A program made the position numbers and the translations under genes. 46,013 nt of DNA from Gracilibacter sp. BRH_c7a. GTDB taxonomy: Bacteria; Bacillota; Desulfitobacteriia; Desulfitobacteriales; Syntrophobotulaceae. Of the stretch, positions 18,493 through 46,013 are shown one piece after another. The DNA lies in the NCBI GenBank assembly GCA_001516055.1, contig LOEZ01000085.1, positions 1 to 46,013 on the forward strand. Direction: 5' to 3'. The notes beneath the pieces were generated by a model. That model searched no databases and was not told the DNA's origin. It saw only the letters and a list, made by a program, of their open reading frames with translations. The stretch's first letter is position 1. Each line of letters begins with the position of its first letter.

Positions 18493-18573
18493 GTGGATAC
18501 GTTAAGTGAATGCTAATCAAAAAGCACCAGCGGCATATGGACCGTCACGCAATTCAATTCTTCATCTCAATGA

Positions 18574-18741
<168 letters not shown>

Positions 18742-18791
18742 TACCCATAACCCTGAACAATTGGTCTTGTGACTTTCGGATATATTTGAGT

Positions 18792-30454: not shown

Positions 30455-31191
30455 TGATAAAGATCAGTGTTGTTGTACCTGTCTACAATAGTCGGAGTAC
30501 TTTGGAAATGCTGTATCATCGTCTTAAAGAAACCTTTGAAACACTAAATCTTGATTTAGAAATTATTATGGTCGACGATTGCAGTAAAGACGACAGTTTT
30601 AGCAAAATGATGGAGCTGCATACGAATGATCCGAGAGTTAAGATCATTCAATTAAAGAGAAATTACGGCCAACAAAATGCACTGATGTGCGGGCTGCACC
30701 ACGTAACTGGGGAATATACGGTGATCATGGATGATGATTTGCAGAATCCGCCGGAGGAGATAGCCAAGCTCTGGCTTAAAATTCTGGATGATTATGATGT
30801 GGTTTATGGTTTGCCGGCACTGCCCATTAAGAAAGATCAAGGATATAGGTATTGGGGCGGCGTCTTAAGAGATCTGCTTTTTGATCTGATGATTAATAAG
30901 CCTTCAGGAATTAAGGTTAGCAGTTTTCGGATCTTAAAGGGAGATTTGGTTCAGAAAATAATTAAGGATAAAACTTCCTTTGTTTATATCTCAGCAATTA
31001 CCTTTAAGCATAGAGTTAAAGCAGCTAATATCGAGGTAGAACATCATCAAAGGGAACTTGGTTATTCCAACTATAGTATGTTAAAATTAGCTCAGCTCTA
31101 TCTAAAGATTTTGTTTAATTACGGTCCTGGGTTTTCTCGATTGGCAAGGACATCTCAACTCCAGTATGAGATTTCCAAAATAAAATTATAA
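30451..31191 (+). CDS. GT2 family glycosyltransferase (GtrB/ArnC-like)
   Basis: 246 residues with a GT-A fold: ISVVVPVYNSRSTLEMLYHR at the N-terminus, IIMVDDCSKDDS, and the metal-binding MDDDLQNPPEEI. It resembles polyprenyl-phosphate glycosyltransferases, but the C-terminal two-helix membrane anchor typical of GtrB/ArnC is missing; the protein ends about where it would begin. The ATG overlaps the aminotransferase stop (ATGA), so the gene pair is translationally coupled. It probably transfers the amino sugar made by the preceding enzyme to a lipid phosphate or other carrier. The acceptor is not known. Confidence 0.9.
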   Translation: MMIKISVVVPVYNSRSTLEMLYHRLKETFETLNLDLEIIMVDDCSKDDSFSKMMELHTNDPRVKIIQLKRNYGQQNALMCGLHHVTGEYTVIMDDDLQNPPEEIAKLWLKILDDYDVVYGLPALPIKKDQGYRYWGGVLRDLLFDLMINKPSGIKVSSFRILKGDLVQKIIKDKTSFVYISAITFKHRVKAANIEVEHHQRELGYSNYSMLKLAQLYLKILFNYGPGFSRLARTSQLQYEISKIKL

Positions 31192-31242
31192 AACAGAAAT
31201 TGCAGAAAAGACAATATATATTGGCGTTAGGAGGAGACATCA

Positions 31243-32481
31243 CTGGCCAGGCTGCTGATTCTAGGAGGAAGTAACATCCAGTTAAATGCTGTACTGCGGG
31301 CTCAAGAAAAAGGACATACCGTAATTGTTGCAGACTATGATAAGACTTCACCTGGGAAAGGATCTGCTGATTACGCAGAATTGACCAGTACTTTTGATGC
31401 CGAAGGTTGTCTGGAAGTTGCCCGTAAATATAAGATAGATGGTATTCTGACTGTTGGGACAGACCAGCCTGTTCTGACTTGTGCCAAGGTAGCGAGTGAT
31501 TTTGAGCTTCCATTTTTTTTGGATGCCGAGACGGCAAAAGCTGTCACCCATAAAAAAGTTATGAAAAACATATTTAAAGAGTACGAAATACCCAGTGCAA
31601 AATATCGATTGTTAAAAGAAGGGTTCACCGAAGATGAATTAAGGGGCTTAAAATTCCCTTTAGTCATAAAGCCGCTTGACAGTCAGGGACAACGGGGTGT
31701 TTACAAAGTGAGCTCTCTTCAAGAAATTAGGAACTTATTGCCCAATGTTTTAAGTTATTCCAGAGAGAATGAAATTCTAGTTGAAGAATTCTATGAGAGT
31801 GAGGAGATCACGCTAAGCGGATGGGTCAGGGAAGGGATAGTACATATTTTGACTGTTACGGATAGACTGACGATTTCAAACTATCCGCATATCGGTATTT
31901 GTGTTGCTCATAATTTTCCTTCGAAGCATCTGTCCGCCAATTTCCATGAAATAAAAGAGCTTGCGGAGAAAATTGTCAAGGCTTTTAAGATTAAGAACGG
32001 GCCCATCTATTTTCAAATGCTGATAGGCTCGGATGGGATTAAGGTGAATGAGATAGCCTGCCGGATCGGAGGGGCTTACGAGGATGAATTAATACCGGTG
32101 ATCACAGGGGTAGATATTCTTGATATGGTGATTACTCATGCCGCAGGACAAGAAATTGATTTTTCTCCCATAGAAGCGTATAACTTAAAAAAGAATACAA
32201 ACTATGCCGCTGTCCAGATGATCTTTACCAAGCCGGGCAAGATCGGAAAGATGACGCCAATGCACACTATCATGATGTTGCCTGGGGCAATAGCAGGAAA
32301 ATTTAACTATCACGAAGGCAGTACTGTCCAAGAAATCCAAAACGCTACCCAGCGGGTAGGCTATATGATTTTTCAAAGTGACTCGTTGGTAGATCTGAAA
32401 AAAAGGATAGCGGAGGCTTTTGCAATAATGGAAATTAGAGATACACAGGGAAATAATATGCTACTTGATTTGCTTAGATGA
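31243..32481 (+). CDS. ATP-grasp domain ligase with apparent CTG start
   Basis: 412 residues when begun at CTG 31243, giving ARLLILGGSNIQLNAVLRAQ, a pre-ATP-grasp Rossmann-like domain. The ATP-grasp part (about 115-310) has KPLDSQGQRGVYKV, ILVEEFYESEEI and NEIACRIGGAYEDE with the metal ligands. The CTG has AGGAGG eight bases upstream and an in-frame TAG five codons back. Starting at a later TTG (31381) would delete the conserved N-terminal domain. It is a carbamoyl-phosphate-synthetase/PurK-like carboxylate-amine ligase of unknown substrate, possibly attaching an amino acid in the pathway of its neighbours. Confidence 0.88.
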   Translation: MARLLILGGSNIQLNAVLRAQEKGHTVIVADYDKTSPGKGSADYAELTSTFDAEGCLEVARKYKIDGILTVGTDQPVLTCAKVASDFELPFFLDAETAKAVTHKKVMKNIFKEYEIPSAKYRLLKEGFTEDELRGLKFPLVIKPLDSQGQRGVYKVSSLQEIRNLLPNVLSYSRENEILVEEFYESEEITLSGWVREGIVHILTVTDRLTISNYPHIGICVAHNFPSKHLSANFHEIKELAEKIVKAFKIKNGPIYFQMLIGSDGIKVNEIACRIGGAYEDELIPVITGVDILDMVITHAAGQEIDFSPIEAYNLKKNTNYAAVQMIFTKPGKIGKMTPMHTIMMLPGAIAGKFNYHEGSTVQEIQNATQRVGYMIFQSDSLVDLKKRIAEAFAIMEIRDTQGNNMLLDLLR

Positions 32482-32541: not shown

Positions 32542-33513
32542 GTGAAAACAAAAGTAATACTAAGCATTGTAGTATTTTTATTTTTTGGCTTGATTTTAGC
32601 TGGTTGTAGTGCTATGGGAAAAGGCCGGGAGGAAAAACTTCAAATAAGAATAGCAGAACAATATGGTCTGGCCTATGCTCCCTTGCAGATTATCAAGGAA
32701 AAAAAGCTGATCGAAAAGAATTTGCCTGACATACAAGTAACCTGGCGGCAGCTTGGCAATACGGCTGCGATTCGGGAAGCCATGCTGGCAGATGAATTGG
32801 ATGTTGGTTTCATGGCGATTCCACCCTTTCTTATTGGGTGGGATAAAGGTATGGAATGGAAGATTGCCTGCGGGCTTTCCTCAAGTCCAGTCGCGCTTGT
32901 GGTAAATAAAGAGAGCATTAAATCTATACAAGATTTTACCCAGGAAGACAGAATAGCTTTGCCGCAGCCTGGTAGCGTTCAACATATTTTATTGTCCTTA
33001 GCCTGTGAAAAGATATGGGGTGACCCTACAAGATTGGACAATCTGCTTGTAACCCTGGATCACCCTGATGGGATGAATGCGCTTCTGGCCCGGAGGGAAG
33101 TCAGCGCACATTTTACTACACCGCCTTACTTGTTTAAAGAACTGGAAAATCCAGGAATGCGTCAAATCCTGGATGGTAAGGAGGCTTTGGGTGAAGAGTT
33201 TACTTTTATTGTTGGTGTTACTACCGCTAAACTTTATCAGGATCAGCCTGAAGTATATGATGCATTTCTCAGAGCTTTAGAAGAAGCGGTAGACTTTATG
33301 GAGAACAATCCAACCGAAACGATCAAGATTCTGGCTGCGGCTTATCAGATCGAGCAAGAAGAAGTATTAAAATACTTGGAACATCCGGATATGGCCTATA
33401 GTCTGGAAGTAAAGGGTGTAATGAAATTCGCTGACTTCATGCAAAAAAACGATTATATTAAAAGAAAACCGGCTAATATCGAGGAAGTAATATGGGATGA
33501 AAATGACAAATAA
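32542..33513 (+). CDS. ABC transporter substrate-binding lipoprotein (SsuA/TauA/THI5-like)
   Basis: 323 residues, with a signal ending LILAGC (lipobox). The binding fold of the NMT1/SsuA family contains RIAEQYGLAYAPLQIIKEKK, DVGFMAIPPFLIG and FLRALEEAVDFM. Members bind sulfonates, taurine, nitrate or thiamine precursors; no feature fixes the ligand here. GTG start with AAGGAG 11 bases upstream. The permease gene overlaps its end, so SBP, permease and ATPase form a complete importer. Confidence 0.92.
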   Translation: MKTKVILSIVVFLFFGLILAGCSAMGKGREEKLQIRIAEQYGLAYAPLQIIKEKKLIEKNLPDIQVTWRQLGNTAAIREAMLADELDVGFMAIPPFLIGWDKGMEWKIACGLSSSPVALVVNKESIKSIQDFTQEDRIALPQPGSVQHILLSLACEKIWGDPTRLDNLLVTLDHPDGMNALLARREVSAHFTTPPYLFKELENPGMRQILDGKEALGEEFTFIVGVTTAKLYQDQPEVYDAFLRALEEAVDFMENNPTETIKILAAAYQIEQEEVLKYLEHPDMAYSLEVKGVMKFADFMQKNDYIKRKPANIEEVIWDENDK

Positions 33514-34288
33514 GACATCCTCTTATCAAAAAATAAAGACCCGATTGTTTTGGGTTATAGTCATTCTTGTATTGTGGGAAATCGTGGCTCAAAGCGGTAT
33601 TTTCCCAGCAGCTATTTTCCCTTCCTTGCTGGTGATTGCGAGGGCTCTGGAAAATTCCATTGTCAGCGGGGAAATACTTCTGCAGACGGCTTTTTCTCTG
33701 GCCCTAATCCTTCAGGGGTTTCTTATCAGCCTGCTGGCAGCGATTCTGGTGAGTTCCCTGGCTGCTGGAAATAAGATGTTTAATGGATTGGTCGATACAC
33801 TTGCGGCTATTGCCCATCCTTTGCCGGGAATTGCCCTTTTGCCTCTGATTATTGTTTGGTTTGGTACCGGAACTACTTCTATACTCGTTATTATTGTGCA
33901 TTCGGTCATTTGGCCTATGATTTTAAATATTATGACTGGTTTCAAGGCTATATCGCCGATCTATAAAGAAGCAGGGCTTAATTTCGGGTTGAATCGTTTT
34001 CAAATCATTAAAGATATATTAATCCCAGCTTCCCTGCCCTATGTGTTATCAGGAATCCGGATTGGCTGGGCGAGAGCGTGGCGAGCCTTGATTAGTGCGG
34101 AAATGATCTTCGGTGCGGTAGGTTTAAAAGGTGGTTTAGGATGGTATATCTTTAAGCAGAGAGTATTTATGGATACTCCGGGGATGTTTGCCGGAATTTT
34201 TGTGATCGTACTGATTGGGATTATAGTAGAGGATTATGTTTTTGCTGCCTTTGAAGAAAGGACGGTCAAAAAGTGGGGAATGATCTGA
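33497..34288 (+). CDS. ABC transporter permease (SsuC/TauC-like)
   Basis: 263 residues, about six membrane helices. The EAA loop is in EAGLNFGLNRFQIIKDILIP. The start, MKMTNK, lies within the last codons of the SBP gene (17-base overlap). A second in-frame ATG at 33503 is equally possible. It forms the channel of the importer. Confidence 0.92.
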   Translation: MKMTNKTSSYQKIKTRLFWVIVILVLWEIVAQSGIFPAAIFPSLLVIARALENSIVSGEILLQTAFSLALILQGFLISLLAAILVSSLAAGNKMFNGLVDTLAAIAHPLPGIALLPLIIVWFGTGTTSILVIIVHSVIWPMILNIMTGFKAISPIYKEAGLNFGLNRFQIIKDILIPASLPYVLSGIRIGWARAWRALISAEMIFGAVGLKGGLGWYIFKQRVFMDTPGMFAGIFVIVLIGIIVEDYVFAAFEERTVKKWGMI

Positions 34289-35082
34289 AACAGCAGGAAG
34301 AGAACTTAATAGACAGGACTGTGATTATCTGCCTGAAGTCGGTCAGTAAATATTACCGAAGATCTCAAGAAACACTGAGAGTACTCGATCATATCGATCT
34401 GGATATCTATCAGGGAGAAATCTTAGCCTTATTAGGACCTTCAGGCTGTGGTAAGACTACACTTCTAAGACAGATTGCAGGCTTTGACCATAGGGAATCT
34501 GGAAGTTTGCTCATGGATGGACATGAGGTCGTTCAGCCTGAAGTAAAGCGGATTATGATTTTTCAGGATTTCAATCAGCTGTTTCCTTGGAAAACCGTAA
34601 TTCAAAACGTGGTCTATCCCTTACAAGTAAACCGGGTTGGAGAAAGTGACACTGCCAACAGGGAGATAGCTCTTGAGTATCTTAAATTAGTTGAATTAAC
34701 CGGATTTGAAGACAGTTATCCTCATCAGCTTTCCGGAGGAATGAAGCAGAAAGCGGCGATGGCCAGAGCCTTGGCCCTTAAACCTAAAGTGTTGCTCATG
34801 GACGAGCCTTTCGGGAGCTTGGATGCTTTAACCCGGATAGCACTTCAAAACTTGCTTTTAAAAGTTTGGCAGGAAACAGGAGTCACGATTATCTTTGTAA
34901 CACATGATATTCAAGAAGCGGTGATACTTTCTGATCGTATTGCCGTGATGGGCAGAGAGACTGCAGGAATTAAAAAAGTAATACCAAATCTGCTGGATAG
35001 ACCAAGAGTTGTCGGAGAAGCGGGTTATTCAGAAATATATGGTCATGTTTATTCGCTGATGGACATCAATCCTACAAAATGA
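34273..35082 (+). CDS. ABC transporter ATP-binding protein (SsuB/TauB-like)
   Basis: 269 residues. Walker A GPSGCGKTT, Q-loop FQDFNQLFPW, signature LSGGMKQKAAMA, Walker B VLLMDEPFGSLD and the switch His in FVTHDIQEA are all intact. The order of the three genes and their overlaps fit an SsuBC/TauBC importer. GTG start inside the permease gene (16-base overlap), with AAAGGA before it. The final residues are variable. Confidence 0.95.
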   Translation: MGNDLKQQEENLIDRTVIICLKSVSKYYRRSQETLRVLDHIDLDIYQGEILALLGPSGCGKTTLLRQIAGFDHRESGSLLMDGHEVVQPEVKRIMIFQDFNQLFPWKTVIQNVVYPLQVNRVGESDTANREIALEYLKLVELTGFEDSYPHQLSGGMKQKAAMARALALKPKVLLMDEPFGSLDALTRIALQNLLLKVWQETGVTIIFVTHDIQEAVILSDRIAVMGRETAGIKKVIPNLLDRPRVVGEAGYSEIYGHVYSLMDINPTK

Positions 35083-35114: not shown

Positions 35115-35142
35115 AAGCCAGAGCAATTGAAAGCTCTGGCTT
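35115..35142 (-). terminator. Terminator shared by the ABC unit and the GT39 gene
   Basis: AAGCCAGAGC pairs with GCTCTGGCTT around an 8-base loop. On the minus strand it is followed by TTAATTTTTA, so it suits the gene ending at 35141, whose stop is in the stem. On the plus strand it may also end the ABC transporter transcript. Confidence 0.7.
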
Positions 35143-36703
35143 ACGTATTTACTTTATATATTCTTATTTTCCAATCTCTTTTGTTCGTATATTTCGTAAT
35201 CCGCATCCCATATGTAGGTTCAGAGAACTCGTAAACCAACTGAGTTTTCGTATTAAGGAATTTTTGCATATCATCATAATATGAGGAAATATCTCCGTAT
35301 ACATTGTTCCATTCCGGTCTAAACATATAAATAAAATCCATTTCTTCAGGATAGATGATATACGAAATTTTATTGCGAACAATATATTGTTCAAATGTTA
35401 AGTTGTTCTCGGCAAGGAAAGCCAGATTTCTATAATCATAGAGCCTTCCGTTATCGAAATACATCTCCGCATTCAGGTTAGCCAGAACAGTTTCCTCGCT
35501 TTTAACCATCTTTCCAATCTCTTGAAGATACCTGTCATACGAGTGATTCAGATAAGGAAGAATATTGGTAATGCTATTAATAGATATTATCAGTACCAAA
35601 GCTGCTGTTAAATAGATCTTAGGACTCTTATTCAAACGTGTTAGAACATAAGTAACCAGAATATAGAATAAGGGTACTAGAAAGATGATACTCGTCTGAT
35701 TAAAGCGACCGATAAAAATAATACCCGCATTAACAGCTAAGATTGCGAGAATGATGCTGCTTAACATTTGTCTAGATTCACTATGTTTTTCTTTGAATAA
35801 TAAAAATATAGCTGCTAAAAAGGCCAGGGCGAAAAGATAGAACTCAAGCCTGATGTCCGGAGTATAATATGTGCCGCTTACCCCATAGAAAAGTTTTAGA
35901 TAAAAGTTTATGATTTCTAAGAATTTTGAAGTCAGCGTATTAGTGACACCAAATTGACTCCCATAATTAGAATAATTCTCAATAAAATTGGCGTCAAAGG
36001 AGAAACTCAAGGCGATAAAAACCGAAGCAAAACATGCTGCTGTTGTAATATAAGTAAAAAGTCCGGAGATTTTAAGTTTTTTGGTAAAGATAATGTAAAA
36101 CAGGTAAAGGACACCTAATGGAAGGGAGATGATAAAACTATTTGGGTGTACTCCAATACTAAGTCCGATTATGATTCCCAGAAGAAGGTGGTTAACAAGC
36201 TTTAAATCTGAAAGGTTAGAGAGAAAATAATATAAAGAAAAAATTAAGACAAAGAGCAAAATAATTTCCTGGCGAGCAAAGTGCGAAGCATAAATATATT
36301 GAATATCGATAGCTAAAAGCACAGTAGATATGAAAGCATATTTTTTGGAACCGAAAATAAGTGCACAGAGTTTATAAAAATAAAATAGTGTAAGCAATCC
36401 AAACGAAAAAGACAACAGCCGAACTGTAAATATTTCATAGCCTAAAATTTTTATAAAAATAATTTGAACTGAATGGAAAAGACTCTTAATAGCATGGGGA
36501 TAACGCGGATAAAGATCAAAAAATGGTTCAGTCACCGCATAGCTTCCTGTCTCCATGATATTTCTGGATAGGCCGCTTAGCCATGTTTCATCTGAATGCA
36601 CGAAAGGAAACCGGGTAAGAATGATGATATTGCCCGTAATGTAAAGAAGTATAGAAAGTAAATATATTATTTTCGTAGTAAAAAAGCTTTTCAATTTTAT
36701 CAA
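35141..36703 (-). CDS. Membrane glycosyltransferase of the GT39/PMT-ArnT-like type
   Basis: 520 residues, about 11-12 membrane helices. The first external loop carries HSDETW, which matches the acidic catalytic pair of polyprenyl-phosphate-dependent mannosyl/aminoarabinosyltransferases. The C-terminal portion is a soluble domain of about 130 residues. The start is TTG at 36703 with AAGGA close upstream. It probably moves a sugar from a polyprenyl-phosphate carrier to a surface acceptor, which would fit the upstream GT2 in function, though it lies on the opposite strand and in its own unit. Confidence 0.8.
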   Translation of the reverse strand: MIKLKSFFTTKIIYLLSILLYITGNIIILTRFPFVHSDETWLSGLSRNIMETGSYAVTEPFFDLYPRYPHAIKSLFHSVQIIFIKILGYEIFTVRLLSFSFGLLTLFYFYKLCALIFGSKKYAFISTVLLAIDIQYIYASHFARQEIILLFVLIFSLYYFLSNLSDLKLVNHLLLGIIIGLSIGVHPNSFIISLPLGVLYLFYIIFTKKLKISGLFTYITTAACFASVFIALSFSFDANFIENYSNYGSQFGVTNTLTSKFLEIINFYLKLFYGVSGTYYTPDIRLEFYLFALAFLAAIFLLFKEKHSESRQMLSSIILAILAVNAGIIFIGRFNQTSIIFLVPLFYILVTYVLTRLNKSPKIYLTAALVLIISINSITNILPYLNHSYDRYLQEIGKMVKSEETVLANLNAEMYFDNGRLYDYRNLAFLAENNLTFEQYIVRNKISYIIYPEEMDFIYMFRPEWNNVYGDISSYYDDMQKFLNTKTQLVYEFSEPTYGMRITKYTNKRDWKIRIYKVNT

Positions 36704-36760
36704 TTTTCCTTACCCCATTATGTTATTACATATAATAGAAATATATCTATGTTTATATTT

Positions 36761-36782
36761 TGTCACATTATTGTTTGTGACA
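36761..36782 (+). promoter_or_regulatory. Candidate Crp/Fnr-type operator
   Basis: TGTCACA and TGTGACA are exact inverted repeats with an 8-base spacer, 22 bp in total. It lies between the GT39 gene and the rhodanese gene, about 185 bases upstream of the latter. Such 22-bp symmetric sites are typical of CRP/FNR-family regulators; which one is unknown. Confidence 0.4.
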
Positions 36783-36966
36783 TTTTTATTTATTGTAACA
36801 AATTCTCAACAAAAAAAGGTTTTCACAATATCAAATTATGTGATGGGCCTATCAGAAAAACTTATATTACAGAAATATCTTATTAAATTATAATGAAAAA
36901 GTACTTTATGTGTAAATTATAACAAGCTTTTATTATCACAAAAAATATTTGGGGAGGTTTACTAAC

Positions 36967-37959
36967 TTGAAGAAAAGAATCAAACACTTGCCACTTGTAC
37001 TATTGCTTGTACTGACTTTAATACTGACAGGTTGTGTTTCTACACCTACTATCCCTGTAAATGCTGGGTTACTTACAACGACCAAGGCCCCTGAAGCTAA
37101 TATTGTCGCAGATGCTGCCAAAGCCTATTTTGCAAACATGCCAGCAGATATTTATAAGATTCCAGAAAAAGACTTCGTAGATAAGGTCAAAGCCAATGAA
37201 GATATGTTTGTTATGGATATTAGGCAGGCTGTTGATTATGATAAAGGTCATATTAAAGGTGCCGTAAACATTCCTTGGGGAGAATCTATAGCGAAAGAGC
37301 TGGCAAGCTTGCCGAAAGACAAAGTAATTATGGTCTATTGCTATACCGGCCAAACAGCTGGGCAAACTGTTGCTCTTTTAAATGTCGCTGGTTTTAACGC
37401 AAAATCAATTAATCTGGGCTGGAATCTTGGAATATCCAAAGTAGAGGGTATAGCAGATGTAACTGAAACGGTAGCGAATGCAATTCCGGAAGCAAAAACC
37501 CAGATCGATCCAGAAATCCAGACAGCAATTACAAATTATTTTTCTAAAATGGCTGAACTTAAAGGAACAACTTATGCCAACTATAAGATAAGTGAAGATA
37601 ATGCTAAAAAAGTACTGGATGCTAAACTTACTAACGTAAAGTTTTTATCCGTCAGGAAAGGAGAGGATTTTGATAAACAGCATGTCCCAGGGGCAATTAA
37701 TCTTCCGTTTTCTAAGGGAATGCAAGCCTACTTTGACCTACTGCTCTTAAAAAATAAAAAAATAATTGTCTACTGCTATACCGGCCAAACCGCAGGTCAG
37801 ACAGTTGCGATACTCAGATTATTAGGTTATGATGCAGTTTCCTTAAACTCGGGTATGGGCACACCTGCCACACCTGGTGCAGGCTGGGCGAATAAAGGAT
37901 TCCCGACCGAAGGTGCAACCAATACTGTACTTAAACCTAGCGCGGGGGATCACTCTTAA
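36967..37959 (+). CDS. Lipoprotein with two rhodanese domains (first copy)
   Basis: 330 residues. Lipoprotein signal with lipobox LILTGC. Rhodanese domain 1 (about 55-170) and domain 2 (about 205-320) each carry the loop VYCYTGQTAGQTVA, with the persulfide cysteines C125 and C270. Both domains therefore look catalytically competent, unlike classic tandem rhodaneses where one domain has lost its cysteine. Expected role: sulfane sulfur transfer at the outside of the membrane, for example from thiosulfate or polysulfide. The start is TTG 36967 with GGAGG nine bases before it; the in-frame TTG at 36949 would leave the ribosome site inside the gene. Confidence 0.88.
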   Translation: MKKRIKHLPLVLLLVLTLILTGCVSTPTIPVNAGLLTTTKAPEANIVADAAKAYFANMPADIYKIPEKDFVDKVKANEDMFVMDIRQAVDYDKGHIKGAVNIPWGESIAKELASLPKDKVIMVYCYTGQTAGQTVALLNVAGFNAKSINLGWNLGISKVEGIADVTETVANAIPEAKTQIDPEIQTAITNYFSKMAELKGTTYANYKISEDNAKKVLDAKLTNVKFLSVRKGEDFDKQHVPGAINLPFSKGMQAYFDLLLLKNKKIIVYCYTGQTAGQTVAILRLLGYDAVSLNSGMGTPATPGAGWANKGFPTEGATNTVLKPSAGDHS

Positions 37960-38091
37960 AGTAAAAGCTAGCTATTCATGAAGATGAAATGCGCAAAAAT
38001 AATTATCTGTAAAGATATTGATATAAACTATGTATCTAAAAAAACCCAGGATTCAATTAATCTATTACAAAAAGTTAGGGAGGCGAATTCG

Positions 38092-39054
38092 ATGAAAAAG
38101 TTCAAAATGTTACCACTCGTACTCATTCTTGTTTTCTCTGTAATAGTTGCTGGTTGTGCTGCTACACCAGCCGCTCCGGCCAATACCCAGCCACCTGCAG
38201 CTGACCAACAACCTGCTCCTGCCCCGGCTCCTGATGTTGATGTTGTCGCTGATGCTGCGAAAGCCTATTTCGCTAACATGCCGGCAGATATTTACAAGAT
38301 TCCCCAAAATGACTTTGTTGAAAAGGTCAAAGCGAATGAAGATATGTTTATTATGGATGTCAGACAGGCGGCAGATTATGATAAAGGACATATTAACGGT
38401 GCTGTAAATATTCCTTGGGGATTAGCGATTGCTGATAATCTTGTAAACCTGCCCAAAGACAAAGCGATTATGGTCTATTGCTATACCGGTCAAACTGCTG
38501 GTCAGACCGTTGCTCTCTTAAATGTTGCCGGTTTTGATGCAAAATCTGTTAACCTGGGGTGGAATCTTGGCATTTCTAAAGTAGAAGGTGTTGCTGCAGT
38601 AACTGAAACGAAAGCCAATGCAGTTCCGGAAGGGAAAACACAGGTAGACTCAGAAATCCAGACAGCAATTACGAATTACTTCACTGAAATGACTGAATTG
38701 AAAGAAACCACTTACGCTAACTTCAAAATCAGTGAAGATAATGCCAAAAAAGCACTGGATTCTACAGATCCTAATGTAATGTTTTTATCTGTAAGAAAAG
38801 CTGAAGACTATGCCAAAGGTCATATCTCAGGGGCTATTAATATCCCGTTTGGTCAGGGAATGCAAGATTCCTTTGGTGAGCTTCCAACAGACAAAAAAAT
38901 CGTCACCTACTGCTATACCGGCCAAACCGCAGGTCAGACAGTTGCAATTCTCAGATTATTAGGTTATGATGCGGTATCTTTAAACTCTGGTATGGGTATG
39001 GAATCTACAGGCAGTGCTGGTTGGGTCAATAAAGGATTCCCTGTTGTCCAATAA
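38092..39054 (+). CDS. Lipoprotein with two rhodanese domains (second copy)
   Basis: 320 residues, a paralogue of the upstream gene. Lipobox VIVAGC, then a short Pro/Ala-rich linker (about 24-45) absent from the first copy, then two rhodanese domains with active cysteines C130 and C274 in CYTGQTAG. Stretches are nearly identical in DNA (for instance 37771-37808 against the corresponding part of this gene), pointing to a recent duplication. ATG 38092 follows AGGGAGG by eight bases. The gene lies 132 bases after the first copy and may have its own expression. Confidence 0.9.
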   Translation: MKKFKMLPLVLILVFSVIVAGCAATPAAPANTQPPAADQQPAPAPAPDVDVVADAAKAYFANMPADIYKIPQNDFVEKVKANEDMFIMDVRQAADYDKGHINGAVNIPWGLAIADNLVNLPKDKAIMVYCYTGQTAGQTVALLNVAGFDAKSVNLGWNLGISKVEGVAAVTETKANAVPEGKTQVDSEIQTAITNYFTEMTELKETTYANFKISEDNAKKALDSTDPNVMFLSVRKAEDYAKGHISGAINIPFGQGMQDSFGELPTDKKIVTYCYTGQTAGQTVAILRLLGYDAVSLNSGMGMESTGSAGWVNKGFPVVQ

Positions 39055-39124
39055 AAACCCGCGATAATCCAATCCAAGGTCAAAAAAAGAAAATTTAGGT
39101 TATAAGACTTAACTAAGAAGAATT

Positions 39125-39158
39125 GACGGAGGCAGTAAGAATAGCTGTCTCCGTCTTA
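39125..39158 (+). terminator. Terminator after the rhodanese pair
   Basis: GACGGAGGCAG pairs with CTGTCTCCGTC (one G-U) around a 9-base loop, followed by TTAT. This separates the rhodaneses from the transporter genes. Confidence 0.55.
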
Positions 39159-39290
39159 TACTTTGCTTAACACAATCCCTTGTCAGGCAACTCATTTTTT
39201 TGATATTATATAAATTTGAAATATTTGATGATTGACTAATATTGCAAAACTATCTAAACTTAAATTAAAAATCTTTTCACAAGAGGAAAT

Positions 39291-39923
39291 ATGGAGAAAA
39301 AAGCTCTCACTTCACAATGGAAACTAAACCTTGGTTTTTCCTTTTTTATACTTATGCTTATCGTTTTGCTTCTACAGGTCAGTATCCAGCTAACGTTACT
39401 TTTTGCTGTAAGTCTGGCTCTTGGTTTTACATTGCAAAAATCGAGGTTTTGCTTTACATCAGCTTTTCGTGATCCTTTGCTTGTCGGTTATACAACTTTA
39501 ACAGAGGCTTTAATCTTGCTTTTAGCTATCAGTATACCCGGCTTTGCAATTGTCTCAAATGTAGCCGGTATTTTGCACTTGCCATTAAGCTTATATGTAA
39601 CTCCTTTTGGCATTCATACCTTTGTTGGAGGTATTTTATTTGGAATCGGAATGGTGATGGCTGGTGGCTGTGCATCGGGTATCCTAATGCGTATTGGCGA
39701 AGGGTTTGCTATGCAAATGATCGCTTTTGCAGGTCTAATGATTGGAGCCATTTTAGGAAAATACTCGTTACCTTATTGGCGCGCGAATTTTGGTGAGGCG
39801 CCGGGGATATTTCTTCCTGATATAATCGGCTGGCTGCCTGCTGTAGTGCTGCAGCTTTTAATCCTTTTCTTTTTATGGAAAGTCACCCGTTGGTGGAAGA
39901 GAAAACTTAATGGAGTCGGGTGA
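39291..39923 (+). CDS. YeeE/YedE family sulfur transporter, first half
   Basis: 210 residues, about five membrane helices. It belongs to the Sulf_transp family: the signature cysteines are in SRFCFTSAFRD and AGGCASGILMRIG, the positions known in TsuA-type thiosulfate uptake proteins to contact the substrate. TsuA proteins are a single chain of about 330-350 residues; here only the first part is present and the second half is encoded two genes downstream, so the transporter is split. ATG 39291 follows GAGGAA. Confidence 0.88.
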   Translation: MEKKALTSQWKLNLGFSFFILMLIVLLLQVSIQLTLLFAVSLALGFTLQKSRFCFTSAFRDPLLVGYTTLTEALILLLAISIPGFAIVSNVAGILHLPLSLYVTPFGIHTFVGGILFGIGMVMAGGCASGILMRIGEGFAMQMIAFAGLMIGAILGKYSLPYWRANFGEAPGIFLPDIIGWLPAVVLQLLILFFLWKVTRWWKRKLNGVG

Positions 39924-40159
39924 AAAAAATGGCAAGGCATCAAATCGATATATGGGGCGAGATGTGCCCTATTCCAATCATCAAAACACAACGACAGCTA
40001 AAACTAATGTGCTGCGGCGATGTTTTAATTATGGAAACAGATCATAGTTGTACCAGTAGGGCTATCGTAGTCTGGGCTCGGGAACAGGGTCATGAAATCG
40101 ATGAAAAAGAGGTTGCGAATGGAATATGGCGTCTAGAACTGATCAAAAGACATAACTGA
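39920..40159 (+). CDS. TusA/SirA-family sulfur carrier (TsuB-like)
   Basis: 79 residues. The CPxP motif is CPIPIIKTQ with the sulfur-carrying Cys16, and GDVLIMETDHS follows as in TusA proteins. It accepts thiol-bound sulfur from the adjacent YeeE/YedE channel, as in TsuA-TsuB pairs. It starts at GTG 39920, overlapping the stop of the first transporter half by four bases; ATG 39929 is an alternative that would shorten the N-terminus by three residues. Confidence 0.9.
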   Translation: MKKMARHQIDIWGEMCPIPIIKTQRQLKLMCCGDVLIMETDHSCTSRAIVVWAREQGHEIDEKEVANGIWRLELIKRHN

Positions 40160-40173
40160 TAGTGGGTGAAACT

Positions 40174-40665
40174 ATGCGAAATAAAGTGCAAATCATCTAT
40201 AAAGGACCTTGGGCATACTGGGTTGGGGCAGTGGTATTGGCAATTTTAAATATGATTGTACTCATTGTCAGGGAAATGCCTTGGGGGATTACAACAAATA
40301 TTGAAGCTTGGTCAGTCTGGCTAGGTTCTAACATGGGTTTGCTTCATGATGAAGGAATTACCTTCAAGCAGTTAATGCTGTCAGACGGAACTTACTTGAA
40401 TATGGGTGTTATTCTTGGTGCCTTTTGGGGTACATTAGCGGCATCACAGGCACGCTTTCGCCATATGAAGAATAGAAAGTTTGTAATATCAGCACTTATC
40501 GGTGGTCTGCTTATGGGTTATGGTGCCCGTATTGCCAGCGGATGCAACATTGGATTGGTTTTAAACGGTATTGCTTCCAGTTCATTATCCGGATGGCTTT
40601 TCACAATTGCTGTTTTTATTGGTGTTTGGTTAGGCTCTAAAATTCTGCTTCGCTTTTTATTATAG
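40174..40665 (+). CDS. YeeE/YedE family sulfur transporter, second half
   Basis: 163 residues, about four membrane helices. GGLLMGYGARIASGCNIG is the second half's conserved cysteine motif, and WGTLAASQARFR is in the preceding loop. With the first half it would reconstruct a full TsuA-like channel. ATG 40174 has GGGTGA four bases upstream; GTG 40162 is an alternative. It is only 14 bases after the TusA gene, so transporter, carrier and transporter form one operon. Confidence 0.86.
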   Translation: MRNKVQIIYKGPWAYWVGAVVLAILNMIVLIVREMPWGITTNIEAWSVWLGSNMGLLHDEGITFKQLMLSDGTYLNMGVILGAFWGTLAASQARFRHMKNRKFVISALIGGLLMGYGARIASGCNIGLVLNGIASSSLSGWLFTIAVFIGVWLGSKILLRFLL

Positions 40666-40705
40666 AAATTGATGTTGCAGTTAAAAAAACAGAAAGAAAT
40701 TGAGA

Positions 40706-40743
40706 AAAAGAGGATGACTTAGTACAGAAAGTCATCCTCTTTT
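40706..40743 (+). terminator. Bidirectional rho-independent terminator
   Basis: A perfect 15-bp stem: AAAAGAGGATGACTT (40706-40720) pairs with 40729-40743 around an 8-base loop, with T-runs on both strands. It lies between the transporter operon and the convergent LysR gene. Confidence 0.85.
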
Positions 40744-40759
40744 CTAACTCATAAATAAT

Positions 40760-41662
40760 TTAACATAAAAAACTCTCTTCCGGATCAGTCAGAAACTTTA
40801 TTAATTTTCTTGTCTTGGAAGACAAAAAATGATTATCAGATTTAATAATATTAAAGGTTAAAGGCATATCCAGATTGGATATTGTTAGGGCTTTAAGCGT
40901 TCCAAGGTAGATTTCTTTTTTTACAGATAAACGAGGTACAACAGCCCCTCCCATTCCAGCCAGCACGGCCGATTTAATTGCGTCTATCGTACTCATTTCT
41001 GTAATCACGTTAAGTTGTTTGATAGAGTAATCTTGAGCTTCTAGGGTTTGGGCTAATACTGTTCGTGTACCTGATCCGGATTCACGCATAATTAATGGCT
41101 GACTCAGGAATTCCTTTAAACTGAGCTTATCAGTTTGGGCAGGGTGAGAAGGAGGTACAATCAAAACCAGTTCATCAGAAGCAATATGATGCGTACTGAA
41201 TCCAGGTAATGTCGGATATATTTCAGTCACGCCAAAGTCAACATCTTCATTCTTTACCTTACGTAATATTTCTTCTGCGTTGGCAATTTCGAGCCGGATA
41301 TTAACCTCTGGATGTTCTTCTTTGAACAAATAAATTGAGCAGGGTAGTAAAATATTGCCAATGGTTGTGCTGGCTCCAACGGTAATTTGGTTATTCTCAT
41401 GCTGCAATGTTAGTTCCAGTTGTTGTTCCATTTCATCCTGCAGTGCTAGAAGACGCTGTGCATAGTTAGTAAAGACCTGCCCGGCTTTCGTCAGAGAAAC
41501 TCCCTGTTGCGTACGTTCAAATAACTGGCCACGATAATACTCTTCTAAACTCTTGATATGAGTGCTTACTGCAGGTTGACTTAAATGCAAGACTTTTGCA
41601 GCTTTGGAAATACTTTGGAATTTGGATACAGCGAGGAAAATTTTTAACTGATAACTGTCCAA
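40760..41662 (-). CDS. LysR family transcriptional regulator
   Basis: 300 residues. The N-terminal winged helix-turn-helix (about 1-60) contains AAKVLHLSQPAVSTHIKSLE; the rest is a LysR substrate-binding domain. It resembles the CysB/CysL-like or 'selenium-metabolism' LysR group by its N-terminus. It starts with TTG 41662 after AGGTGG. It diverges from the Mo-reductase operon and converges on the sulfur-transport operon, so it is a good candidate for controlling both, or the former. Confidence 0.93.
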   Translation of the reverse strand: MDSYQLKIFLAVSKFQSISKAAKVLHLSQPAVSTHIKSLEEYYRGQLFERTQQGVSLTKAGQVFTNYAQRLLALQDEMEQQLELTLQHENNQITVGASTTIGNILLPCSIYLFKEEHPEVNIRLEIANAEEILRKVKNEDVDFGVTEIYPTLPGFSTHHIASDELVLIVPPSHPAQTDKLSLKEFLSQPLIMRESGSGTRTVLAQTLEAQDYSIKQLNVITEMSTIDAIKSAVLAGMGGAVVPRLSVKKEIYLGTLKALTISNLDMPLTFNIIKSDNHFLSSKTRKLIKFLTDPEESFLC

Positions 41663-41690
41663 ACGTCCACCTGCTCTCTAATTTTTTTAA

Positions 41691-41730
41691 TCTTAATGTT
41701 AAGAATAAAAAGGCACATATCTTAATGTTA
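41691..41730 (+). promoter_or_regulatory. Direct repeat, candidate LysR binding region
   Basis: TCTTAATGTTA occurs at 41691-41701 and 41720-41730, 29 bases apart start to start. It sits directly upstream of the LysR gene in the LysR/reductase intergenic region, where a LysR autoregulatory site would be expected. The repeats are seen; the regulator is inferred. Confidence 0.4.
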
Positions 41731-41840
41731 CACCACAAATCTCTATCTGAACAGCATAAACCCGAACTTTCTTTGAATTTTCTTTCGTAAGTCCTCAAAT
41801 TTTATAGAGTTTTGTTTTTTACAGGCAGTTATAAAAGTTC

Positions 41841-41856
41841 CTTATATCGATATAAG
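41841..41856 (+). promoter_or_regulatory. Perfect 16-bp palindrome upstream of the reductase operon
   Basis: CTTATATCGATATAAG is a perfect palindrome about 105 bases before the start of the reductase gene. It could be the LysR activating site for that operon or another operator. Confidence 0.4.
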
Positions 41857-41959
41857 AAGATGCGATGCTCACGGGTGTAGCAATTGCTTGAGGAATATGT
41901 GAAGATAATTGCAAGAGTATTTAAACGATGTAGAGATTACTTGATGTGGAGGGAAAGGT

Positions 41960-44206
41960 GTGAACAGGAGACAATTTCTTAAGTATGCGCTTTATGGAGC
42001 AGGGGGTACGGCCATTGGTGTAAGTGGTTTAGGAGCTCTGACTAAAGTTGCACCCAAATCTGCTATAGCCACTACAAATACAGAGGAGACTACTGTTTTT
42101 TCTGCATGTGAAATGTGCCGCAATCAATGTCCTATTGCCGTAAAGGTAGTTAACGGAAAAGTCACAAAGATTGAAGGGAATCCCAATGATTCTGGGTTCG
42201 GAGGGGTAATTTGTGCCCGGGGGAATTCAGGACCATCGTTGTTGTACGATCCTCAAAGGCTTAAAAAGCCAATGATTAGAACGGGAGAACGGGGAACAGG
42301 CAAATATAAAGAGGTTAGTTGGGACGAAGCCTATACGTATATTGCGGATAAGTTAAAAGTTATACAGCAGGACTTTGGGGGAGAATCTGTTGCGTTTGCA
42401 AGTCGCAAAGGACCTCATGACTGGTTTTTCCGTACGATCGGTAAGGGGATAGGGAGTCCCAATATTTTTTCTCACGAGGCCACCTGTCCTATGACCCGTT
42501 CCGTTGCTTTGGATAGCATGTTTGGCGTGGAGGCTATTGCTGCAGACTATGCCAATGCCAAATATATCGTCTCCTTTGGACGCAACTGGCTGGAAGGCAT
42601 TCATATTGCACAAACCAGAGCTATTATGAAAGCGATCGATAATGGTGCTAAACTTGTTGTGCTTGACCCCCGGCTTAGTGTAACCGCATCCAAAGGGGAA
42701 TGGATACCGATTAAAGGTACCACAGATTTGGCTTTTGTCATGGCCATGGCTAATATTATTATTACTGAGGAAAGATATGATAAAGATTTTGTAGAGCGTT
42801 ATACCTCGGGATTTGATCAATGGAAAGAGGCTGTTAAAGACAAGACACCGGAATGGGCAGAGAACGAAACAGGAATTCCTAAAGAGACAATCATCAGGAT
42901 TACACGTGAATTTGCCGAAGCCAGACCACAGGCAATCTTAGACTTTGGTTGGCGGACAGGGCTTACCCCGAATGATTTTCAATTACGCCGGGCTATCATG
43001 ATCGTCAATATGATGATGGGGAATTTTGAAGTCCCTGGGGGTTATTACCGTATTAAAAATGCCTCCGTCACCAATAGATTCCCGGAAATGACGGGCTATG
43101 CCAAAGCACTTGGCGCAATAAATCAACCGGCTTTTCCAAAACCGGTCACCAGCAGAATTGATGGAACAGGAATAAAAGGAATACCGGGGCAGCTCATACC
43201 GGAAGGTGATGGTGCTGTCGGGCAGATTGTAGAGTCTATATTGACTGGGCAGCCATATCAGATTAAAGCCTGGATGGTGCACCGTTTTAATCCGGTAATT
43301 AGTATTACGGAAAGTGATCGAGTCATAGAGGCATTAAAGAAACTTGACTTACTGGTAGTATGTGACGTTTACATGACGGATACAGCCATGTTTGCAGATG
43401 TGATTCTTCCCGAATGCTCATATTTGGAGAGACATGAACCCGTCTATGACATGTCCGGATTAACACCAAAATATGTCCTTCGTCAACCAGCTGTTGAGTT
43501 AGTTTATCCAGACACGAAACCTTCATGGCAGATTTATAAAGAATTAGGAGAAAAAATGGATCTTGGGAAGTATTTCCCATTTCAAAATATTGAGAATTAC
43601 ATCAGTCGGCAGTTAACTCCAGCAGGGCTGTCTCTAAGCCAACTAAAACAAAAAGGTGTCTGGACGCCGGAGGGAATGAAGCCTTTCTATCTTCGTGCCA
43701 ATGACTCACAAGCTTCTTTGGGAAATGTAATCAGTAAAGTCAGCCAAAAAATTGAGTTTTATTCGGAAGAAGTTCAGCATGCCACAAAGCAAGGGGTTCC
43801 GCAATACAAACGCCACCCTCAACCAGAGGAAGGAAAATTCCGCTTTGTACAAGGTAAAGTAGCGGTACATACCAATGCCGGTACGGTAAATGTTCCGGTG
43901 CTGAATGAACTCATGCCAGAAAACTCTCTTTGGATCAATAAAGCAAGTGCAGATAACCTTGGCATCCTTGATGGGGACGACATCATCATTTCATCCGGTA
44001 TATATGAACACAAAGGGAAGGCCAAAGTTACTGAGGGTATTCGACCTGACACAGTATTTTGTTATCATGGATTCGGTCGTATTTCACCCGAGCTGAAAAG
44101 AGCTTTCGGCAAAGGAATTAACGATAACAAACTGATTCTTAACCAGATTGGTGAAGTTGGAAATGTCTGCACATCCATGACAATGGTAACTGTTAAAAAG
44201 GCTTAA
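41960..44206 (+). CDS. Tat-exported molybdopterin oxidoreductase, thiosulfate/polysulfide reductase type (PhsA/PsrA-like)
   Basis: 748 residues. A twin-arginine signal (MNRRQFLKYALYGAGG) is followed by an N-terminal [4Fe-4S] site (C50, C53, C57, C85) and the bis-MGD-binding domains. The probable molybdenum ligand is C176 in HEATCPMTR, the position expected in PhsA/PsrA. The molydopterin dinucleotide-binding C-terminal domain (about 630-748) is present. The next genes are a TorD chaperone, a four-cluster Fe-S protein and an NrfD anchor, the usual order for a CISM membrane reductase. Substrate thiosulfate, polysulfide or sulfur is inferred from the sulfur genes nearby; tetrathionate or arsenate enzymes are related. 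GTG start with GGAGGG six bases before. Confidence 0.9.
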   Translation: MNRRQFLKYALYGAGGTAIGVSGLGALTKVAPKSAIATTNTEETTVFSACEMCRNQCPIAVKVVNGKVTKIEGNPNDSGFGGVICARGNSGPSLLYDPQRLKKPMIRTGERGTGKYKEVSWDEAYTYIADKLKVIQQDFGGESVAFASRKGPHDWFFRTIGKGIGSPNIFSHEATCPMTRSVALDSMFGVEAIAADYANAKYIVSFGRNWLEGIHIAQTRAIMKAIDNGAKLVVLDPRLSVTASKGEWIPIKGTTDLAFVMAMANIIITEERYDKDFVERYTSGFDQWKEAVKDKTPEWAENETGIPKETIIRITREFAEARPQAILDFGWRTGLTPNDFQLRRAIMIVNMMMGNFEVPGGYYRIKNASVTNRFPEMTGYAKALGAINQPAFPKPVTSRIDGTGIKGIPGQLIPEGDGAVGQIVESILTGQPYQIKAWMVHRFNPVISITESDRVIEALKKLDLLVVCDVYMTDTAMFADVILPECSYLERHEPVYDMSGLTPKYVLRQPAVELVYPDTKPSWQIYKELGEKMDLGKYFPFQNIENYISRQLTPAGLSLSQLKQKGVWTPEGMKPFYLRANDSQASLGNVISKVSQKIEFYSEEVQHATKQGVPQYKRHPQPEEGKFRFVQGKVAVHTNAGTVNVPVLNELMPENSLWINKASADNLGILDGDDIIISSGIYEHKGKAKVTEGIRPDTVFCYHGFGRISPELKRAFGKGINDNKLILNQIGEVGNVCTSMTMVTVKKA

Positions 44207-44260
44207 CCATCAGTCTTGTGATTAAAAGAAAGTCAGCATATTTAAGGTGAGGATATATCA

Positions 44261-44839
44261 TTGAATAACAAAACAGCAGAACTATATTTATCTTTTGCGG
44301 GAATATTTCATAGGCCTCACCCGGAAATTGCTGAGCATCTTGAAGAGCTCATTGAATTGTGGCGTGGGGAAATCCCTGAATCTAAAGAGCAATTAGTCGA
44401 AATCGAAGATTATTGCAGGAAATATCCTCTGGTCAATGACCGCTTAGATACGCTATGGGAACATTATATCCCTTTATTTGAGACCGGGGATATTGAGGCA
44501 ATACCCTATGCCTCAGTTTACTTTAACGATAACGGATTGGTATTGGGGAAAGAGGCGGAAGATGTAAGAGAGTTTTATCTTTCCTGTGGTTATGTTATCG
44601 GAAATGAAAAACAGGAACTGCCCGATCATCTGGCAGTCGAACTGGAGTTCTTGGCATTATTAGCCAGAGATGGAAAAACGCAGAAATTGGCAGAATTCGA
44701 GAGAGACCATTTAAGACCATTCCTCCGCACAATCCTGCCATTGATAATTAAAAGTAAGCGACCGGTTTATTCGAGTGCTGCTAAAACTCTGGAAATATGG
44801 CAATTAAATTCTGATAGAAAGGGCGATTCAATTGGCTAA
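44261..44839 (+). CDS. TorD/DmsD-family molybdoenzyme chaperone
   Basis: 192 residues, all-helical, with the family's YASVYF motif and a conserved DHLAVELEFLALLAR. These chaperones bind the Tat signal and aid cofactor insertion of the Mo reductase encoded just before it. It starts with TTG 44261 after AAGGTGAGG. Its end overlaps the Fe-S gene by eight bases. Confidence 0.88.
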   Translation: MNNKTAELYLSFAGIFHRPHPEIAEHLEELIELWRGEIPESKEQLVEIEDYCRKYPLVNDRLDTLWEHYIPLFETGDIEAIPYASVYFNDNGLVLGKEAEDVREFYLSCGYVIGNEKQELPDHLAVELEFLALLARDGKTQKLAEFERDHLRPFLRTILPLIIKSKRPVYSSAAKTLEIWQLNSDRKGDSIG

Positions 44840-45395
44840 ACAATACGGGATGGTAATACAGGTTGCTAAGTGTATTGGGTGTCAGGCCTGTACCGTAGCG
44901 TGTAAATTTCAAAATGAAGTTCCTGAAGGGCAGTATAGAACAAAGTCACCGGTATTCGGGCCCATAGGAACCTACCCGAATGTTGCGATGTATTTCGAAA
45001 AAGAAGCTTGTCAAATGTGTCAAAAGGCACCCTGTGTAAATGTTTGCCCAACAAAAGCTTCTCATTATGATGAGAATGGACTTGTTATGATTGATCCGGA
45101 TAAATGTGTCGGATGTAAATATTGTCTAACAGCTTGTCCTTATGATGCCCGTTTTATTAACGCAAAAACAGGGGCTGCTGATAAATGTACATTTTGTTTT
45201 GAAGAAAGGGTATCCAAAGGTCTCAAACCAGCATGCGTTTCAACATGTGTTGGGGGATCTCTAAGTTTTGGGGATGTAAATGACCCCAATAGTGATGTGG
45301 CGAAAATACTGACAAAAAGTAAATCAGAATTCCGTAAAGCTGAATTTGGGACACATCCGAGTATTTACTATATTTTTGATGGGGTGGTGAGATAA
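44832..45395 (+). CDS. Four-cluster ferredoxin-like subunit (PhsB/PsrB-like)
   Basis: 187 residues. Four [4Fe-4S] motifs are in order: CIGCQACTVACK, CQMCQKAPCVNVCP, CVGCKYCLTACP and CTFCFEER with CVSTC further on. This is the electron-transfer subunit of CISM reductases, passing electrons from the NrfD subunit to the Mo subunit. TTG start 44832 after AAAGGG. It probably follows the catalytic subunit through the Tat system by hitch-hiking. Confidence 0.93.
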   Translation: MAKQYGMVIQVAKCIGCQACTVACKFQNEVPEGQYRTKSPVFGPIGTYPNVAMYFEKEACQMCQKAPCVNVCPTKASHYDENGLVMIDPDKCVGCKYCLTACPYDARFINAKTGAADKCTFCFEERVSKGLKPACVSTCVGGSLSFGDVNDPNSDVAKILTKSKSEFRKAEFGTHPSIYYIFDGVVR

Positions 45396-45396
45396 A

Positions 45397-46013
45397 ATGG
45401 ATATTTTCTGGGGTATACCATCTGAAGAACACATTGCCTGGGGCGGGATGATTGCGTTGTATTTATTCCTGGCTGGAATTGCAGGTGGTGGCTTTCTGAC
45501 AGCTTCCTTAACGGATTTATTCAGCAAGGAACGGCCTACTAAATTAATTAAAACAGGTGCATACATTGCCCCAGTGGCCATCATTTTTGGACTAGGGTTA
45601 CTGGTATTGGACCTCAGCAAGCCTTTCTTCTTCTGGAAACTTTTAATCAATATTAACACAAACTCCGTTATGTCCATAGGGACGTATATTATTTCGGTTT
45701 TCGTATCATTGGCGTTTGTTTATGCGTATCTTGTCTGGGCGGAGTCTGCCACTACACTCACGGGGATTTGGGCAAAATTAGTTCAATTCTCCAGCAGATT
45801 CTTCGTGTTGAGAAAACCGGTAGCCCTGCTGGGTGCCATCTTTGCCATATGTACAACAACGTATACAGGCTTTCTTCTTTCAGCCATAACAACAAATACA
45901 CTCTGGTCTGTACCATTTCTTGGACTCGTTGGGGTACCTTTCCTTGCAGTACTTTTCTTAGTATCAGGAGTATCCACAGGATTGGCCGCAACTTTACTGG
46001 GAGCCGCTAAATC
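45397..46013 (+). CDS. NrfD/PsrC-family membrane subunit (5' part; runs off the window)
   Basis: The frame is open from ATG 45397 (one base after the Fe-S gene's stop) to the window end, about 205 residues, with no stop. It has at least five membrane helices (e.g. GGMIALYLFLAGIAGGGFLT and VAIIFGLGLLVLDLSKP), the NrfD/PsrC signature of CISM anchors that draw electrons from quinol. It completes the Phs/Psr-like complex with the two preceding subunits. Confidence 0.9.
   Translation, partial: MDIFWGIPSEEHIAWGGMIALYLFLAGIAGGGFLTASLTDLFSKERPTKLIKTGAYIAPVAIIFGLGLLVLDLSKPFFFWKLLININTNSVMSIGTYIISVFVSLAFVYAYLVWAESATTLTGIWAKLVQFSSRFFVLRKPVALLGAIFAICTTTYTGFLLSAITTNTLWSVPFLGLVGVPFLAVLFLVSGVSTGLAATLLGAAK

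Follow-up and report, generated by a model that had tools for sequence, protein, structure and literature searches.

Little is known of the way in which Gram-positive sulfur reducers take hold of insoluble or scarce sulfane sulfur outside the cell; external rhodaneses, though proposed, have yet to be placed. A locus in Gracilibacter sp. BRH_c7a raises this question, because genes for two tandem-rhodanese lipoproteins (rhdA and rhdB) lie beside a YeeE channel gene split around tusA, a LysR-type regulator gene and a PhsABC-type molybdenum reductase set. The stretch analyzed, hereafter the window, is the entire contig C85 (LOEZ01000085.1, 46,013 bp) of an assembly of 4.1 Mb in 98 contigs. An initial annotation made from the letters had listed these genes, with a chaperone between PhsA and PhsB; that list remained intact when we called genes from open reading frames and scanned the window proteins with Pfam and NCBIfam models. 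We assign a probability of roughly 0.6 to the reading that the locus combines outward-facing thiosulfate or polysulfide respiration with thiosulfate import, the rhodaneses acting as an added surface sulfur carrier similar to Sud of Wolinella.

Conservation of the linked genes

We analyzed co-occurrence across 73 genomes of the order, counting PhsA relatives of at least 66% identity and relatives of YeeE-N, the N-terminal half of YeeE, of at least 51%. Close PhsA relatives were present in 23 genomes, YeeE-N relatives in 21, and both in 18. In 17 of these 18 the two genes lay within 8 kb on one contig, and in G055 they were on separate contigs. The linked loci carry an orthologous LysR gene and cover eight genera with at least two different gene orders. 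A PhsA ortholog was found in 18/21 genomes with YeeE-N versus 5/52 without it (Fisher p = 6e-10; by genus, p = 1.4e-4); with kinship uncorrected, these values are therefore descriptive only. Distances among the LysR proteins track those of the YeeE halves (r = 0.89-0.91) and of PhsA (r = 0.74). Searches at class level added only nine genomes and no further module.

Three locus arrangements were found in the order. Type I, that of the window, recurs from the DegT gene through phsA, chaperone, phsB and phsC in G010 (same genus, 'Gracilibacter sp.', JAGXFZ010000053), and is also present in G009 ('Peptococcaceae bacterium', another genus of the family, JAAYUV010000007) and G029 (another family). 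All three share the order DegT, GT2, ATP-grasp, ABC transporter, PMT (minus strand), two rhodanese genes, yeeE-N, tusA, yeeE-C, lysR (minus strand), phsA and chaperone, to which G010 and G029 add phsB and phsC. Since orthologous copies stand in the same order in these genomes, the arrangement in the window is not due to chance. In place of phsB and phsC, G009 encodes a different 4Fe-4S protein together with a formate-dehydrogenase-gamma-like cytochrome b. The same genome carries, upstream of its DegT gene, a fragmentary molybdenum-enzyme copy with the same partners (L043:744-2180 and 17624-19013), either a recent recombination or an assembly artefact.

Type II (G031, G034, G037, G040, G046, G047, G052 and G059, with G051 and G055 in part) consists of a divergent tandem rhodanese, a single rhodanese-like lipoprotein, phsA, chaperone, phsB, phsC, Rieske, cytochrome b, multiheme cytochrome and lysR, followed on the opposite strand by the yeeE-tusA-yeeE genes. 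Its Rieske and cytochrome genes, between phsC and lysR (L220:9851-13004 and equivalents), suggest a further electron path. Type III (G039, G063, G064, G065 and G066) runs yeeE-N, tusA, yeeE-C, lysR (minus strand), phsA, chaperone, phsB, phsC, with no rhodanese nearby. From this distribution, in which the rhodaneses vary, we conclude firmly that the steady unit is split YeeE/TusA with LysR and PhsABC, and that rhodanese lipoproteins are a frequent addition of two kinds. Such shared grouping in many relatives suggests that the products work jointly on thiosulfate-like sulfur.

The initial annotation had predicted that tandem rhodaneses, split YeeE-TusA-YeeE and phsA would occur together in related genomes, and had named a lack of conserved co-occurrence as one outcome that would speak against it. 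Co-occurrence proved to be conserved beyond the genus, so that outcome did not arise. The part of the prediction that stood is the company of YeeE/TusA/LysR with PhsABC in eight genera; the rhodanese part did not hold at seven phs loci, where these genes are missing.

Reductase, channel and regulator

PhsA scored 825 bits on NCBIfam PRK15488, above the equivalog cut-off of 694, and carries a Tat export motif. Its nearest solved relative is PsrA of T. thermophilus (2VPW). The Fe-S cysteines Cys50/53/57/85 and Cys176 are invariant among ten PhsA orthologs, and Cys176 aligns with the cysteine of T. thermophilus PsrA, as a molybdenum-ligand cysteine should. Full-length PhsC matches PF03916 (NrfD) at 147 bits, so that the set has the parts of a PsrABC enzyme, namely an exported molybdenum catalytic subunit, a 4Fe-4S PsrB and an NrfD-type membrane subunit.

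The channel is divided into halves of 210 (YeeE-N) and 167 (YeeE-C) amino acids, instead of the single nine-helix polypeptide of TsuA, and the three key cysteines of Spirochaeta TsuA are retained across them (Cys54 and Cys127 in YeeE-N, Cys128 in YeeE-C). TusA has the CPxP cysteine, and its best NCBIfam match is TsuB/YeeD (NF041048) at 39.7 bits, under the cut-off of 147.5. In S. thermophila, YeeD uses a conserved cysteine to decompose thiosulfate (PMC11073785). The genome also contains dsrA; DsrA could use sulfite and so offer a sulfite sink. Ahead of yeeE-N in two phs-less genomes, G028 (L133:10465-11262) and G027 (L215:9233), we observed a gene for a C_GCAxxG_C_C redox protein with a Tat/lipobox-like start. 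YeeE/YedE and TusA together with a Phs-type molybdenum enzyme also recall the YTD cluster, a proposed marker of sulfur disproportionation (PMC12998232). In that cluster yedE and tusA are accompanied by dsrE-like and chp genes, whereas the neighboring genes examined here include no DsrE-like or Chp genes, and the same paper calls the disproportionation mechanism in Bacillota obscure; we regard a disproportionation cluster as very improbable.

The LysR protein scored 242 bits (cut-off 250) on NF040786, a model named 'selenium metabolism-associated LysR', on which a type II ortholog reached 265 bits. The best match of the YeeE halves is the selenium YedE model, and selD is present in the genome. 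YeeE-TusA-LysR could on these grounds handle selenium as a YedE-type system, not sulfur. However, the two YeeE proteins score far under the cut-offs of the selenium models, as expected for halves, and the genes are linked to Phs in eight genera. Furthermore, selD was not found in G066 (90% complete) or G030 (82%), both of which have split YeeE and LysR, and it shows no association with split YeeE across the order (19/21 genomes with versus 40/52 without, p = 0.32). A role in selenium metabolism is therefore improbable. The next best model for the regulator was YeiE; its nearest solved relatives are not labeled YeiE, so sulfite as effector is only a hint.

A TTAT-N6-ATAA box lies 105-159 bp before phsA in 9/9 loci that combine linked yeeE with lysR as the direct divergent neighbor of phsA, all of type I or III, where about 0.06 per locus is expected. 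Type II loci show no such box up to 420 bp from phsA, and none precedes phsA in G025 or G026, two genomes in which the chaperone gene stands ahead of phsA; G028, which has no phs genes, keeps it upstream of lysR. Across the whole window the motif occurs four times against 3.1 expected, and therefore only its position and conservation count. On these two features, we regard the box as a good candidate for an operator. Another match, at 36880 ahead of rhdA, was discounted, as it overlaps a TATAAT-like -10 element.

Rhodanese lipoproteins and the PMT gene

The pairs of Rhodanese domains in RhdA and RhdB scored 105.6 and 107.5 bits on PF00581. The initial annotation had seen four intact active sites in two lipoproteins, and all four are present as CYTGQT loops at residues 131/276 of RhdA and 168/312 of RhdB, with a lipobox on each protein. 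The catalytic cysteine is invariant in an alignment of nine type-I sequences, as in catalytic rhodaneses. The match of relatives to RhdB begins at 38092, and its AlphaFold model (pLDDT 74) gave rhodanese-fold matches. A strong terminator divides the rhodanese unit from yeeE, with GC-rich inverted repeats at the same spot in relatives. Because it ends the rhodanese unit, we rejected a single operon of rhd and yee genes, and the sulfur genes of the window form at least three transcription units. Upstream of the rhd genes (36704-36948), five genomes conserve a dyad near TATCA-N7-TGATA, unlike the LysR box and possibly the operator of another regulator.

Of the 23 genomes with PhsA, 14 also encode rhodanese lipoproteins beside it, in two types that take up two positions; two further genomes are cut by contig ends. 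The type II tandem rhodanese shares 36-40% identity with type I, and the single rhodanese of type II loci lacks its one catalytic cysteine. Elsewhere in the same genome, contig C45 (L088:6122-12700) encodes a rhodanese lipoprotein without both catalytic cysteines, a molybdenum enzyme, an FeS protein, NrfD, a chaperone and a rhodanese. This set is conserved in G028, G029 and G060, and matches the Desulfitobacterium hafniense operon Dhaf_1508-1513 by gene content. Rhodaneses and Psr-like molybdenum enzymes are thus joined in separate arrangements (type I, type II and the C45 operon). In addition, contig C40 has a third type-I rhodanese, whose neighbors are a PMT gene and a further split YeeE-TusA set, G009 has a type-I rhodanese beside a DmsABC-like operon, and cytoplasmic CoA-disulfide-reductase/rhodanese fusions adjoin yeeE in G037, G040 and L046. 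External rhodaneses near molybdenum reductases are a recurring theme in the order. We also observed an 885-amino acid protein that carries four or more rhodanese domains (L144:8019-10676, contig C4 of G066); the phs locus of G066 itself is free of rhodanese genes.

The gene divergent to rhdA, for a PMT_2-family membrane glycosyltransferase, shows a pairing that is new and absent from the initial annotation. All six PMT orthologs in the order stand beside a type-I tandem rhodanese, five of them directly divergent and the one on C40 with another rhodanese gene between; outside the order, the same holds for L046 and for L045, where a further rhodanese gene again intervenes. The surroundings include a WecE-type dTDP-amino-sugar transaminase, GT2 and ATP-grasp ligase genes, and rfb genes past phsC. 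No solved relative emerged from a profile search with the PMT proteins. We also considered whether the rhodanese linker is O-glycosylated, a notion that gained no support from composition, because linkers of type II proteins, which have no PMT neighbor, are by eye equally Pro/Ala/Thr-rich. It is conceivable, though unlikely, that the PMT transferase, fed by the bracketing rfb/WecE/GT2 pathway, modifies the tandem-rhodanese lipoproteins or a wall glycan and thereby holds extracellular sulfane sulfur at the envelope for PhsA and split YeeE.

The same pairing could place the rhodaneses outside the thiosulfate system altogether, as partners of the PMT/amino-sugar genes in surface modification or in general sulfane-sulfur or cyanide handling, and as mere neighbors of phs and yee. 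PMT and type-I rhodanese stay together with or without phs and yee (G028 has no phs; the L045 contig has neither), the rhodanese genes form their own terminator-ended unit, and type III loci do without them. Against this, 10 other genomes have a rhodanese of another type, type II, at phsA, type-I or C45-type rhodaneses stand beside other molybdenum-enzyme operons, and rhodanese and YeeE are brought together in L046 and in the C40 copy. We consider a separate role for the rhodaneses a real but clearly weaker alternative.

Proposed mechanism and points against it

In the respiration-and-import reading, Tat-exported PhsA would be tied via PhsB to the NrfD-type PhsC and would reduce thiosulfate (to sulfite and sulfide) or polysulfide at the outer face with electrons from menaquinol. 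Split YeeE and its TusA/YeeD-like partner would bring thiosulfate or sulfane sulfur into the cytoplasm. LysR, divergent from phsA, would bind the TTAT-N6-ATAA box, govern at least phsA, act as the dedicated regulator of the module and possibly co-regulate import and respiration. Family knowledge and linkage make these three steps most likely. By analogy with transfer from Sud to Psr, the two lipid-anchored tandem rhodaneses most likely bind sulfane sulfur outside as protein persulfide and would pass it to PhsA. Perhaps they pass sulfur to YeeE too, and the proposal of the initial annotation that they feed both import and respiration is possible.

Several findings weigh against this reading. 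The genomes are related, so the synteny is partly inherited. G025 and G026 have lysR and phs without yeeE, whereas G027, G028 and G030 have yeeE-tusA-yeeE and lysR without phs. The rhodanese genes of the window form a transcription unit of their own, and at least seven phs loci have none. The tools used do not distinguish PhsA from PsrA. TusA, unlike YeeD, is reported to lack thiosulfate decomposition (PMC11073785). Finally, the related rhodanese/molybdenum-enzyme operon of D. hafniense, which has two rhodaneses, is induced about 40-fold by Fe(III) (PMC3306737), and the similar C45 operon is present in this genome. PhsABC and the rhodaneses could accordingly serve another acceptor such as Fe(III), which would make the sulfur names misleading. 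The C45 enzyme nevertheless belongs to a different clade, with 33% identity to the window PhsA and 393 versus 825 bits on PRK15488, where it fails the cut-off, and we find another acceptor rather unlikely.

Gene inventory and surroundings

The features are collected in Table 1. The conserved neighborhood begins at 29312, upstream of the start given in the initial annotation, and its first three genes are syntenic in G010, G009, G029, G028 and L045. The ABC transporter that follows is syntenic in relatives and scored 110 bits on SsuA_fam, under the cut-off of 163.5. The reductase set was correctly described as cut by the window edge, which is the end of contig C85. One end of contig C25 (L102) repeats window positions 43871-46013 (overlap 2143 bp, 99.95% identity); the contigs are unjoined in the assembly, and the locus runs on into C25 with a complete phsC (299 amino acids) and then an rfbA-like gene. 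At the other end of the window, positions 3156-4865 hold a flagellin-like open reading frame of 569 amino acids with, judged by eye, a long central insertion.

Table 1. Features of the sulfur locus and its conserved flank (window coordinates).
Feature	Position	Strand	Basis
DegT/WecE-type aminotransferase, GT2 and ATP-grasp ligase, conserved flank	29312..32481	+	PF01041, PF00535, PF13535; PRK11706 498 bits (cut-off 375)
NMT1/SsuA-like ABC transporter, three genes	32542..35082	+	PF13379, PF00528, PF00005
PMT_2-family membrane glycosyltransferase, divergent to rhdA	35141..36703	-	PF13231/PF02366
rhdA, tandem-rhodanese lipoprotein	36949..37959 (start 36967 also possible)	+	PF00581 x2, lipobox LTGC
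rhdB, tandem-rhodanese lipoprotein	38092..39054 (frame opens 37978; start from relatives)	+	PF00581 x2, lipobox VAGC
Intrinsic terminator, 12-bp stem, between rhdB and yeeE-N	39125..39155	+	
yeeE-N, N-terminal half of YeeE/TsuA channel	39291..39923	+	PF04143 positions 1-154; aligns with TsuA 6LEO
tusA/yeeD-like sulfur carrier, CPxP Cys16	39920..40159	+	PF01206 56 bits
yeeE-C, C-terminal half of YeeE	40162..40665	+	PF04143 positions 170-310; aligns with 8J4C/6LEO
LysR-type regulator	40760..41662	-	PF00126/PF03466
Candidate LysR box TTATATCGATATAA	41842..41855	+	TTAT-N6-ATAA; candidate site
phsA, Tat-exported molybdopterin thiosulfate/polysulfide reductase catalytic subunit (predicted)	41960..44206	+	PRK15488
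TorD/NarJ-type maturation chaperone	44261..44839	+	PF02613
phsB, 4Fe-4S electron-transfer subunit	44832..45395	+	PF13247; NrfC/TtrB-like
phsC, NrfD-type quinol-oxidizing membrane subunit (predicted), cut by contig end	45397..46013	+	PF03916

Comparison with known systems

The initial annotation did not know the joint arrangement as a described system. A literature search, with most subscription journals outside its reach, found no paper on a linked split-YeeE/TusA/LysR/Phs locus or on a rhodanese-PMT pairing, and to that extent the claim stands; it does not extend to the pairings, each of which has precedent (Sud-Psr, YeeE-YeeD, the PmpA/PmpB halves), nor to the broader combinations in cable bacteria and D. 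hafniense. With the genes linked, and accompanied by a regulator of their own and a conserved candidate operator, in relatives that are in culture, it becomes testable whether respiration and import form one regulon, and likewise whether a surface rhodanese feeds respiration or import. The split YeeE-TusA-LysR-Phs grouping is also a gene-neighborhood marker for thiosulfate use in the order.

Among the known systems, PhsABC of Salmonella resembles the window set in Tat export and in the PRK15488 model, whose equivalog cut-off the window PhsA exceeds. Salmonella PhsC is a cytochrome b, whereas the membrane subunit here is NrfD-type (PF03916) and does not qualify as a cytochrome b. TsuA/TsuB (YeeE/YeeD) thiosulfate uptake shares both PF04143 repeats, the three key cysteines and an operon-encoded TusA-family partner, but the window channel is divided over two genes with tusA in between. 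Separate genes for N and C halves are found in the half-size YeeE proteins PmpA/PmpB (PMC11582611), from which the window halves differ in length (210 and 167 versus about 130 amino acids) and in their linkage to tusA and phs.

The model for cable bacteria, in the accessible text of PMC13047784, combines Phs/Psr, an external (periplasmic) rhodanese and YeeE/YeeD in one scheme, which that text does not present as a single linked, LysR-controlled locus. Dhaf_1508-1513 of D. hafniense (PMC3306737) likewise unites two rhodaneses, a molybdenum oxidoreductase, a 4Fe-4S protein, NrfD and TorD in one operon, but its enzyme belongs to another clade, it has no YeeE, and the first rhodanese of its C45 counterpart is cysteine-less. 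Closest in proposed function is PsrABC with Sud of Wolinella succinogenes, in which, as reported in PMC10092268, Sud feeds Psr: both systems have an external molybdenum enzyme, an NrfD anchor and an external rhodanese-fold sulfur carrier. Sud is a single-domain, soluble periplasmic carrier, whereas RhdA and RhdB each have two active rhodanese domains and a lipobox, so the analogy is one of function only; the window carrier is lipid-anchored, present twice, and accompanied by YeeE-TusA import genes and a LysR gene.

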